Assembly (NCBI GenBank): GCA_030592645.1
Contig: JAUVIR010000022.1
Coordinates: 1 to 46,498 of the forward strand
Origin: Candidatus Fermentibacterota bacterium
Lineage (GTDB): Bacteria > Fermentibacterota > Fermentibacteria > Fermentibacterales > JCC-6
Length of the DNA stretch: 46,498 bases
Direction: 5' to 3'
Part shown: in pieces, positions 9,581 to 34,683 of the stretch
How the letters are laid out: the number at the start of each line of letters is the position of its first letter
Numbering within the stretch: position 1 is the stretch's first letter
Notes under the pieces: generated by a model
Seen by the model: the letters and a program-made list of their open reading frames with translations, nothing else
What the model was told of the DNA's origin: nothing
The model's database searches: none
Made by a program: the position numbers and the translations under genes

Positions 9581-10738
9581 ATGCTCAAATACTTTATTCT
9601 CGTTCTTTTTCTGTCTGGACTGGCAACGGCATTATCTCCGATCTGGGAAACCGAGTACCAGCTGGAAAGTAACGGAAGCATCATCGATGTTGGCTATTAC
9701 GGCGCACCATGCGTGGTGGATTGGGACGTGGACGGTTTGAAAGACCTGGTGCTCGGTCAGTTTTCCTACGGCTACATCTACTTTTACAAGAACGTTGGCA
9801 CAAATAGTGCTCCAGTGTTCAATGGAGCGGTACTCCTCTACGCGGATGGAAGTCCGATAACCATGGCTTATGGTTGATGCACGGGCTCGACGAATCCACA
9901 GGTTGTGGATTACAACAATGACGGGCTCCTTGACATAGTTGTTGGTGATCGCAACGGCTTTATTCATTACTATAGACGCACTTCGAACATGGATGCGACC
10001 TTGACGGAAGAACCCGACATCACCTGTGGGGGAGTGACCATCGATTGCGGTTACAGCGCGGCTCCTGCAATAGTCGACTGGGACGGCGACGGCAAAATAG
10101 ATATGCTGCTGGGCAGCGAAGCCGGTCAAGTCAGGCTTTATCTGAACGACGGTGCGGATACCCAACCTATCTTCAACAGTTATACTAACATTCAGAGCAA
10201 CGGGACCGATATCAGCCACATCAGGAACTGCCCGCAGGTATACGACCTGAACCAGGACGGTAAAAAGGATCTGATCTGCGGAGCGAACGATTACAACGTT
10301 TACTATTATGAAAACGTTGGTACAAACTCCGCTCCGGTATTCAGTGGATCGGAATCCATTGCGTACAAGTATGCCGGTATGCGCCTCTGGATCGATGACT
10401 GGAATGAGGACGGTCTGCCGGATATGCTGACAAGCGACTATAACGGATACGTCTGGGCCTGGATTCAGCAGTCCACAGGCGTAACTGAAGGCACCGCCCC
10501 CGTCCCTTCACGGTCGCTCTCTGCAAGCTCTAATCCTTTCATGGAACTGGTAACAGTTACCGGAGAAGGTTTCTCTTCCGGAACACTTCAGATCTTCGAT
10601 GTTTCCGGAAGAACAATTCTGGAAGTACCTTTTTCGGGCAGTTTTGCATGGGATGGTTCCGGGACTTCAAACGGAACCTACTTCGTCAGAGTGACAGATG
10701 ACTTCGGATCCTCGTCACTCAGACTTCTGAAGCTTTAA
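9581..10738 (+). CDS. Secreted FG-GAP/VCBS repeat protein, candidate selenoprotein read through an in-frame TGA (Sec99)
   Basis: The 386-codon frame is interrupted only by TGA at 9875-9877; the parts before and after are in the same frame and form one coherent protein. It has a signal peptide (ending near ATALS), then four to five FG-GAP/VCBS beta-propeller repeats with DWDVDG, DYNNDG, DWDGDG, DLNQDG and DWNEDG calcium-type loops, and a C-terminal FlgD-like sorting tail (SSNPF...FDVSGRT...YFVRV). The TGA codon falls in a loop reading AYG-U-CTGST, giving a vicinal Sec-Cys pair, in a loop about five residues longer than the matching loops of the other repeats. A perfect hairpin follows at SECIS distance, and SelD in this window is itself a selenoprotein. 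The alternatives are a nonsense mutation (TGG or TGC to TGA), a sequencing error, or two separate peptides. The second part has no signal peptide of its own, so it would be useless alone. Confidence 0.7.
9893..9911 (+). promoter_or_regulatory. Putative bacterial SECIS element in the FG-GAP gene
   Basis: AATCCACA-GGT-TGTGGATT is a perfect 8-bp stem with a three-base loop. The loop begins 23 bases after the TGA and starts with G, which fits the published description of bacterial SECIS elements (a small hairpin 16-37 bases after the UGA with a G early in the apical loop). The apical sequence CAGGTTG matches CAGGCTG in the selD hairpin. Confidence 0.65.
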
Positions 10739-31711: not shown

Positions 31712-31786
31712 AATAATAGAGATGAGCTGTGATATATAAATAAGATATATTGTCTACCACAAAATGTTATTATGAAAGGAGATGCC

Positions 31787-32569
31787 GTGAATAGTATGTG
31801 GATGTCACTACTGGCTGTGCTGTTCGCATGGCCTGCTGTCTCAGAATTATCCGCGGCCTGGCAGGAGCACAATCTTACTTATTCATTCTCAGGGGCGATC
31901 TCATTAAAACTCGCAGATATAGATGACGATGGAGATATGGACATCCTCGGAGCTGCCTGGAACTCCGGGATCTCATGGTGGGAAAACGGAGGCGGCTCGT
32001 TCAGCATGCATACCATCGATGACGGGTTTTCAGGTGCCATATTCGTGGAATCGGAAGATATCGATAGTGATGGTGATATGGATCTTATCGCCGTGTCTTT
32101 TGCCGATGAACTGGTCTGCTGGTTTGAGAACGATGGATCAGAAAACTTCACACAGAGAGTAATCGCGGTTGGAGTAGATGGTCCCTGGACTGCATGTCCT
32201 GGTGATATCGATGGAGACGGCAGGGTTGATGTAGCATCCTGCGCGTACAATCTAAACGCAGTTACATGTTGGGAGAATACCGATTCCACATCAACCGGGG
32301 AAGGTGAAATGACCGGTGACATTACTGCATTTGAAATCGCTCCTAATCCTTCAAATGGATCATTCAAGATTGAATATTCGGTCAGTGAGAATTGTGTTGT
32401 CTCCGCGGGTATCTACGATGTGTCCGGCAGGCTGGCACGGAGCATCATTGAGAATGTGAGCAGAGGCGCTCACAGTATTTCCGTTTCGGAGTTACTCGAA
32501 GGAGTATATCTGATTCAGCTGGAACAAGGTGAGGTTGCCTCAGCCAGGAGAATATCTGTTATCAGGTAG
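31787..32569 (+). CDS. Small FG-GAP/VCBS repeat protein with sorting tail
   Basis: An exported protein of about 260 residues. It has a signal peptide (MWMSLLAVLFAWPAVSELSA region) and three FG-GAP/VCBS repeats with calcium-type loops DIDDDGDMDI, DIDSDGDMDL and DIDGDGRVDV. The C-terminal sorting domain is IAPNPSNGSF...YDVSGRLA...VYLIQLE. It is a shorter relative of the selenoprotein candidate at 9581, but has no TGA codon and no inserted loop. I choose GTG 31787 because AAAGGAG sits five bases before it; ATG 31772 is in frame but would overlap that site. Its strong promoter suggests high expression. Confidence 0.8.
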   Translation: MNSMWMSLLAVLFAWPAVSELSAAWQEHNLTYSFSGAISLKLADIDDDGDMDILGAAWNSGISWWENGGGSFSMHTIDDGFSGAIFVESEDIDSDGDMDLIAVSFADELVCWFENDGSENFTQRVIAVGVDGPWTACPGDIDGDGRVDVASCAYNLNAVTCWENTDSTSTGEGEMTGDITAFEIAPNPSNGSFKIEYSVSENCVVSAGIYDVSGRLARSIIENVSRGAHSISVSELLEGVYLIQLEQGEVASARRISVIR

Positions 32570-33388: not shown

Positions 33389-34609
33389 TTAAGTTATCTC
33401 GAGCAGTACTGATGGGTCATCCAGTTCCTCAACACGTCCGATAACGGCTGTTTCGGTATCCCCATGCTCTATGAGCGCTCTGACCAGAGCATCCGCCTGG
33501 TCAGGTCTGACTGTGGCAAGCAGTCCTCCGGAGGTCTGGGCTTCAGCGAACAGGAGATAATATTTTCTATCAACGTCTTCTCCGAATTTCAAATAAGGGT
33601 CGACGTAATCGGAACACTTGCATACACCTTTTGGATTGAATTCATCAAGCAGACCGGGAAGGTCCGGCAGGAGCGGTACATCTTTTGAATTTATCACTAA
33701 CCTGACTCCCGCATTTCTGGCCACAGGAAGTGAATGACCAAGAAGACCGAAACCTGTAACATCAGTCAGGCAGCTCACATCGAATCTCTGGATTATTTCG
33801 GACGCATATTTGTTCAGCCGCTCCATCCAGTATACAAACGTACTGAACTGTTCATCGGTCAGGCCGTCATTCATCATGGCGTCGCAGTAAACTCCCGTAC
33901 CGATGGGTTTTGTCAGGATTATAACATCACCGGGTTTAGCGTTGTCATTCGTCAGAACTGTTTTTGGGCTGGTGATTCCAGTTACACTCATACCAAAACA
34001 GAAATCATCCTGTTCCATAGTGTGTCCGCCCAGGAGGACCACACCTGATTCATGAAGCTTCTCAGCGGCTCCGGTAAGCAGCTCCAGGATAGCTTCGGGC
34101 GGGATCTTTCCAGCCGGGTAAGCCAGGTGATTCATCGCCGTAATAGCTTTGGCGCCCATGGCCCATACATCAGAAAGACTGTTTGCGGCTGCTATCCTTC
34201 CGAAGCTTCGCGGATCGTCAACTATGGGGAAGAAGAAATCGACGGTTTGTACGAGAGCTATCTCGTCGGTGAGTTTGTAGACCCCTGCATCGTCCATCGT
34301 TTGCATCCCGACAATAAGATTAGGAGAATCGGGCAGAGGCAGTTTTTCCAGTATCCCGGCCAGCCTGGTCGGGTTTAGCTTACCTGCTCAACCGGCGCAG
34401 GGGCCGTATTCCGTCAGTCTTATCTCTTTACCCGATGGAAGAGAACGCTGTGGAATACCGTCCCGCTGCAGTTTCTCCAGGAGAAATTCGCAGTATGTCT
34501 GCTGATGCCTGTCATGATGGAATTTTATACATTCCGGACAGTTCCCCCGTCTTTTACAGTCGGAGGGACAGGGGCAGTTTTCTCCGTTATAGAGTTCAGA
34601 TTCTGACAA
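33389..34609 (-). CDS. selD: Selenide, water dikinase SelD, a selenoprotein (Sec74) with Cys-rich N-terminal extension
   Basis: Makes selenophosphate, the selenium donor for Sec-tRNA, from selenide and ATP. The frame runs 407 codons from TTG 34609 with one in-frame TGA at 34390-34388. Read as Sec, the segment is EIRLTEYGPCAG-U-AGKLNP, which matches the SelD N-terminal motif with U at the catalytic Cys17 position of the E. coli enzyme. Downstream motifs include QTVDFFFPIVDDP, AAANSLSDVWAMGA, GGHTMEQ and DVTGFGLLGH. The first 62 residues are extra: a small domain with CPCPSDCKRRGNCPECIKFH, resembling the DUF6485 family, and no ATG, GTG or TTG start lies between it and the Sec codon. Annotation pipelines would split this into two genes. 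Confidence 0.9.
34355..34373 (-). promoter_or_regulatory. Bacterial SECIS-like hairpin of selD
   Basis: On the minus strand, CCCG-A-CCA, loop GGC, TGG-C-CGGG, with one A/C mismatch. The loop starts 22 bases after the TGA with a G, as expected for a bacterial SECIS that recruits SelB. The apical CAGGCTG is shared, apart from one base, with the hairpin at 9893-9911. Confidence 0.7.
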
Positions 34610-34683
34610 ATCATCTCATTTCATAGGATAATGGTGTTAATTTCCTACTGCGGGAATATACAAAAGCAGCAAGTTGGGAACAG

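Follow-up and report, generated by a model that had tools for sequence, protein, structure and literature searches.

The insertion of selenocysteine (Sec) through SECIS elements and SelB is a standard mechanism. A published general model of the bacterial SECIS specifies G in the first two loop positions, a spacing of 16–37 nt, an upper stem of 4–16 bp and a minimum free energy (MFE) at or below −7.5 kcal/mol (PMC13188914). Most characterized selenoproteins combine a thioredoxin-like fold with a redox motif, and several of the CU-motif families, in which Sec and Cys are adjacent, are without known function (PMC13188914). Known Sec forms of SelD/SEPHS carry Sec in an N-terminal glycine-rich loop (PCAGUAGKLNP) and contain AIRS domains. 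Propellers of the Pfam FG-GAP_3/VCBS type are built from blade repeats with DxDxDG loops and bear secretion signals.

We analyzed a 46,498-nucleotide stretch of DNA (the window), which is contig C25 of a 2.58-Mb Candidatus Fermentibacterota assembly that is 93% complete. In-frame UGA codons are present in an FG-GAP gene and in selD (Table 1). The SelD of the window shares the Sec loop and the AIRS domains of the known Sec forms, its lineage-specific sequence being the sole difference. Downstream of each UGA lies a hairpin whose triloop (GGT in the FG-GAP gene, GGC in selD) is closed by an A-T pair, at the positions and spacings given in a preliminary description of the window. For the FG-GAP gene and selD, respectively, the spacing is 23 and 22 nt, the stem comprises 8 bp and 3+4 bp (with one A/C mismatch in selD), and the hairpin MFE is −8.8 and −9.1 kcal/mol. 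General bacterial SECIS elements (Escherichia coli fdhF and kin) have the same 3-nt loop starting with G, stem of 7–8 bp, position 17–26 nt after the UGA and location within the coding region. The window has no Rfam match at gathering score, and the Rfam SECIS families gave no match at E values up to 10 around either hairpin; the two otherwise lie inside the published model. Both hairpins are very probably bacterial SECIS elements. SelB loaded with Sec-tRNA(Sec) would bind the mRNA hairpin at its GGY loop and would decode the UGA 22–23 nt upstream of the loop as Sec, both in SelD and in an FG-GAP propeller protein that is probably secreted.

Such sites are rare in the window: 6 of its 2001 TGA triplets have a GGY-triloop hairpin (stem of at least 7 bp, one mismatch allowed, 16–37 nt downstream), and among these six only the FG-GAP and selD sites are followed by at least 280 open codons. 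Folding energy was rejected as proof of the hairpins because the z-scores are too weak, at −1.2 to −2.2 for the FG-GAP stretch and about −0.3 for selD, where a longer stretch folds preferentially into another structure. The case for both hairpins is carried by conservation and covariation, with folding energy as weak evidence.

Table 1 Predicted Sec-encoding genes and SECIS hairpins of the window and its genome, with neighboring genes of the two families in this and other genomes; loop distances are counted from the UGA.
Feature	Position	Strand	Description
FG-GAP selenoprotein gene	9581..10738	+	385 aa; Sec is residue 99
In-frame UGA of FG-GAP gene, read as Sec	9875..9877	+	motif G-U-C-T-G-S-T-N-P-Q
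Probable SECIS hairpin of FG-GAP gene	9893..9911	+	AATCCACA-GGT-TGTGGATT; loop starts 23 nt after UGA
selD (selenophosphate synthetase), Sec codon to stop	33389..34390	−	AIRS and AIRS_C domains
In-frame UGA of selD	34388..34390	−	context PCAG-U-AGKLNP
Probable SECIS hairpin of selD	34355..34373	−	CCCGACCA-GGC-TGGCCGGG; loop starts 22 nt after UGA; loop CAGGCTG
FG-GAP Sec genes	C25, C67		loop CAGGTTG, 23 nt
FG-GAP Sec genes	C42, C34+		loop CAGGCTG, 23 nt
FG-GAP Sec gene	C34−		loop CAGGTTG, 26 nt
Second family, first member	L264:14978-15757 (own genome C34)	+	260 aa, LDCUGSD; GAGGTTA, GGT at 20 nt
Second family, further copy	C3:12461-13198	−	GAGGTTA, GGT at 20 nt
Second family, further copy	C8:481-1191	−	TCGGTGA, 17 nt
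Second family, further copy	C43:21067-21726	−	TCGGTGA, 17 nt
FG-GAP and second-family genes as neighbors	G000 C34, G012 C3, G012 C168, G025 C200, G002 C166, G020 C16		

The frame of the FG-GAP gene is open except at its single TGA and encodes an N-terminal hydrophobic helix, five FG-GAP-type blades and a C-terminal T9SS-type sorting tail. Pfam FG-GAP_3 (PF13517) matches the protein in three stretches with 94.6 bits (gathering cut-off, 26.9), and TIGR04183 matches its tail with 31.7 bits (cut-off, 23). From the signal peptide and the T9SS-type tail we infer that the protein is exported; it is probably secreted. An AlphaFold2 model from an 11-row alignment (mean pLDDT 86.7) has five-bladed GH43/GH32 propellers as its top structural matches (6xn0_B: Z 19.5, rmsd 3.2, 246 residues), whereas integrin alpha, with seven blades, ranks lower (Z about 12.8). 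An integrin-like seven-bladed fold thus does not head the comparison, a ranking that in itself excludes nothing. Sequence profiles match integrin alpha and CRTAC1 via the repeats, and these are remote relatives among the repeat propellers. The model suggests a five-bladed propeller with conserved DxDxDG loops of the calcium-binding type; its likeness to GH43/GH32 is one of fold only, and fold by itself shows no function. DxDxDG loops, blade repeats and secretion signals are shared with the Pfam FG-GAP_3/VCBS-type propellers. Unlike in those, the loop before blade 2 is lengthened and contains a Sec-Cys dipeptide; in the model, Sec99 is placed in the loop preceding the inner strand 104–109 of that blade. 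Together with the DxDxDG loops, the Sec-Cys pair is the most conserved feature of the family alignment. By eye, another FG-GAP/VCBS-like repeat protein without in-frame TGA is encoded at 31772–32569 (+), ~0.8 kb from selD.

Among named genomes, the FG-GAP gene is matched closely by assemblies of Candidatus Fermentibacteria/Aegiribacteria, with 94% identity to MAG B22_G4. Four further paralogs in the same genome as the window each have one TGA at the same site. We searched 99 genomes, mostly metagenome assemblies (the genome itself, its relatives and one each of other groups), and found homologs in 40, most with exactly one TGA. In the genome and its relatives, 96 distinct genes have U at one alignment site. 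The surrounding residues vary (UCTG, UCCG, UATG, CUPKTG, UGHAAT, UCGPS, UCMG, UGVCAG) around a constant U, and the neighboring Cys is absent or shifted in a few members (UATG, CUPKTG, UGHAAT). In an alignment of 145 proteins, 130 have U and 7 have C in this column, and 140 have Cys at the following position. Among the genes read from the genome and its relatives, three aligned rows, from two genes, have no U but Glu (G006) or Asp-Asp-Cys (G019). In the G006 gene (G006:C35:13846-15015, L045/L099), Glu-Thr (GAA ACC) replaces Sec-Cys, the SECIS hairpin is perfectly kept and a Sec copy is adjacent; this paralog has probably lost Sec recently. A member with a TGA in a genome labeled Desulfuromonas sp. 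SDB (LKUE01000035.1, L155) is the top match to the family profile, and misbinning or transfer is the likely explanation. A plasmid search gave no match, and a search of the phylum of G047 returned only that genome's own copy.

The Sec machinery of the genome is complete, with SelA adjoining SelB on C29, tRNA-Sec (anticodon TCA) on C58 and the Sec-type SelD of the window. SelB was not found in one Sec-form relative (G002, 86% complete).

Beyond the Fermentibacterota, a search of named genomes reached two Planctomycetota contigs (L158 and L163) that encode VPTGUC(I/V)GF with an in-frame TGA. Homologs are present in 78 of 392 Planctomycetota genomes, mostly with one TGA; among the 51 that were read, U stands in 44 and Cys (TGT/TGC) in seven, and the hairpin is absent from all seven Cys-form genes. 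Of the 43 Sec-form genomes, 39 contain SelB, as do 12 of 20 genomes in which the FG-GAP gene has no match. Six of the seven Cys-form genomes lack SelB, and as these form one clade they count as one event; the seventh (G293) has SelB. The four Sec-form genomes in which SelB was not found, together with G002 and G105, the latter being the 8.2-Mb Planctomycetota assembly that contains the Sec-form gene of L163, are likely incomplete. For G105 the alternatives are an incomplete genome, a misbinned contig or recent loss of SelB. In a FastTree tree the Cys forms branch, with modest support, at two positions among the Sec forms of Planctomycetota, which suggests that Sec was lost rather than gained. 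Three Planctomycetota members (G472:C1:2632285-2633445, L204; G220:C65, L212; G338:C19, L216) have irregular stop counts, their matched frames containing three TGA or one TGA plus one TAG.

These homologs bear on whether the UGA might be decoded as something other than Sec, by readthrough or by reassignment to another amino acid. The genes with Glu and Asp-Asp-Cys show that the site can dispense with Sec, as such decoding would allow. We nevertheless consider it very unlikely: Planctomycetota substitute Cys at the site, the genome of the window encodes SelB and tRNA-Sec, the hairpins fit the SECIS model and the genome's other genes terminate normally at TGA. Even the Glu gene retains its hairpin intact, a remnant of the kind that loss of Sec would leave.

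The preliminary description held that the match between the two hairpins is not explained by protein sequence. This is half right: in the FG-GAP gene, Gln-(Val/Ala)-Val dictates most bases of the apical CAGGYTG, but an RNA signal is visible at synonymous positions. We compared the codons of N-P-Q-(V/A)-V-D in 81 distinct FG-GAP genes with codon use elsewhere in the same genes. The stem Pro is CCA (72) or CCG (9) in 81/81, against 47% elsewhere, and CCC/CCT, which make up 53% elsewhere, are never used. The second Val is GTG in 77/77 (24% elsewhere), Asn is AAT in 68/68 (41% elsewhere), Gln is CAG in 80/80 (85% elsewhere), and the first Val/Ala codon ends in T or C in all. These choices preserve the stem and the GGY loop. 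As read from codon usage, the freezing of synonymous sites that keeps the stem intact is selection at the RNA level.

Covariation was assessed on stem alignments that were placed by hand on the hairpin, and the slid and shuffled controls therefore outweigh the raw percentages of paired cells, which were 93% for the FG-GAP stem (9 cells changed on both sides; equaled in 0/500 shuffles), 92% for FG-GAP and selD jointly (39; 0/500), 88.5% for a second family described below (54; 0/500) and, more weakly, 79% for Planctomycetota (12; 2/500); sliding the partner by 1–3 columns lowered pairing to 22–52%. Compensatory changes in the FG-GAP stem include CCG...GCG, AGT...GAC and replacement of the closing A-U pair by G-C where Gln becomes Arg, and the selD stem is retained with altered sequence in relatives. 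In both genes the structure is kept by compensatory change, which is a criterion for SECIS elements.

The same data address the reading of the hairpin as a by-product of encoding N-P-Q-V-V-D, with no role as RNA and only a coincidental likeness to selD. Amino acids do fix most FG-GAP stem positions, and half of the pairs are invariant. Third codon positions, however, are frozen far beyond codon usage, compensatory changes extend to the closing pair, and Cys-form genes with a similar peptide lose the hairpin, all of which makes a by-product highly improbable. A plain nonsense mutation, or an error of assembly, in a gene undergoing decay is scarcely credible: a fresh mutation would also split one frame with a single TGA, but this TGA recurs at the same site in ~140 genes from dozens of genomes, nearly all without another stop, and is replaced by Cys in homologs. 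Equally implausible is a division into two genes, with one ORF of 98 aa that stops at the TGA and another of 277 aa that starts at GTG 9905: this is the annotation expected from gene callers without a Sec model, yet the TGA cuts the protein between two blades, the conserved UCTG(A/S)TNPQ motif bridges the interval between the ORFs and codons 9878–9904 are conserved as protein.

We are confident that SECIS-driven Sec insertion takes place in SelD and the FG-GAP protein, and that the FG-GAP gene represents a large, apparently undescribed family. The features by which selenoproteins are recognized are present: a UGA at a conserved site flanked by coding sequence, Sec machinery and Cys homologs. 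At the level of sequence, the conserved UGA, RNA-level selection, Sec/Cys exchange accompanied by SECIS loss and the complete Sec machinery all argue for this reading.

Homologs of selD were found in 27 of 27 genomes tested. Most of those read place U in the same context, and some genomes have two selD genes. The start codon of the window's selD lies upstream of the Sec codon, somewhere in 34391–34615, and the interval in Table 1 excludes the N-terminal part. On the minus strand this upstream region contains, in the same frame, a Cys-rich stretch (NCPCPSDCKRRGNCPECIKFH) that may be a small separate gene or the N-terminal part of selD; a similar stretch is found upstream of the L148 selD. Two divergent selD genes (L143 and L144, in G047 and G005) have a GGC or GGA loop, a C-G closing pair and a different stem.

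It had also been proposed that one SelB with a loop preference reads both hairpins, with CAGGYTG expected 20–25 nt after the UGA, and that Sec genes with a different apex and spacing would speak against this. A single good SelB is encoded in the genome (C29), and a GGY loop is common to the ten Sec genes identified there: selD, five FG-GAP genes and four second-family genes. Ten is a lower bound, from 400 kb in 20 stretches (~15% of the genome) plus targeted loci. The heptamer is present in 6 of the 10 and the spacing ranges from 17 to 26 nt, so that other Sec genes do differ in apex and spacing while sharing GGY. One SelB wanting GGY therefore holds in this genome; a fixed heptamer and spacing does not. 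As the published model covers the GGY loop and the spacing, the two hairpins are expected to look alike, and their similarity is no sign of a special SelB. Among relatives, the closing pair changes from A-T to G-C in the FG-GAP genes L112/L113 (CCGCGGGTCGCGG) and to an A.C mismatch (AGGUC) in about a dozen genes; GUU and AGUUC/AGUUG loops are common in Planctomycetota. A covariance model of the FG-GAP and selD SECIS elements recovered six true sites, with only noise at or below 13.4 bits; it missed the second family and is therefore too specific for counting all Sec genes.

The second family emerged when 446 kb of sequence, made up of the window and 20 stretches, was scanned for coding potential; the other in-frame TGA candidates were mostly ordinary stops followed by a neighboring gene in the same frame. 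It has the motif CUGS / GGUGNP, one conserved in-frame TGA and its own SECIS. The first member adjoins the C34 FG-GAP gene and has a strong hairpin (z about −3). A search of 42 genomes gave homologs in 30, almost always with one TGA, and U lies near the aligned column in all rows read (reading window ±8 residues). Pfam gave weak DUF6923/propeller-type matches only, and NCBIfam nothing useful. By sequence, these proteins appear to be secreted, propeller-like and unrelated to the FG-GAP family. At six loci, a gene of one family is no more than about 1.5 kb away from a gene of the other.

A 2026 catalog of 119 prokaryotic selenoprotein families has no FG-GAP, VCBS or propeller entry (PMC13188914). 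Its CU-motif families share neighboring Sec and Cys with the FG-GAP family, but none of those listed is an FG-GAP or propeller protein. NCBIfam r20 gave no selenoprotein family match, the FG-GAP gene matching repeat and tail models only, and full-text literature searches for a selenoprotein with FG-GAP, DUF6923 or Fermentibacter, or for selenocysteine with VCBS repeat or Hyd24-12, returned nothing relevant. A 2016 Planctomycetes paper places selenoprotein candidates in its supplementary tables (PMC4807772). Within the catalog, NCBIfam and the full texts searched, both families are apparently undescribed; it is the protein families that appear to be new.

In selenoproteins, a selenenylsulfide can form between adjacent Sec and Cys residues. 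Outside the cytoplasm, the Sec-Cys pair could act as a redox-active selenenylsulfide/selenol-thiol pair or bind soft metals, and such a redox or metal-binding role is its most likely reading. Redox is the likelier of the two, with about an even chance of being right. This proposal draws on motif and location; no partner protein of the FG-GAP protein was found.

The FG-GAP selenoprotein family appears to be common to Fermentibacterota and Planctomycetota: roughly one in five of the Planctomycetota genomes sampled, and most Fermentibacterota searched, encode the Sec-Cys propeller. Of the ten Sec genes found in the genome of the window, nine belong to these propeller proteins and the second family, both predicted to be secreted and with several copies per genome. 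Whether Fermentibacterota possess a large extracellular selenium system, made up of two unrelated secreted propeller-like families, one of them common to Planctomycetota, and devoted to extracellular Sec-Cys/Cys-Sec redox or metal chemistry, is in our judgment evenly balanced. Gene callers that cut at UGA have probably hidden such proteins. Fragments now annotated as FG-GAP proteins may in many cases have to be joined, and the genes found form a clear set for testing. With its Sec-Cys pair, the predicted secreted five-bladed propeller points to a selenium chemistry that takes place on the cell surface or outside it.
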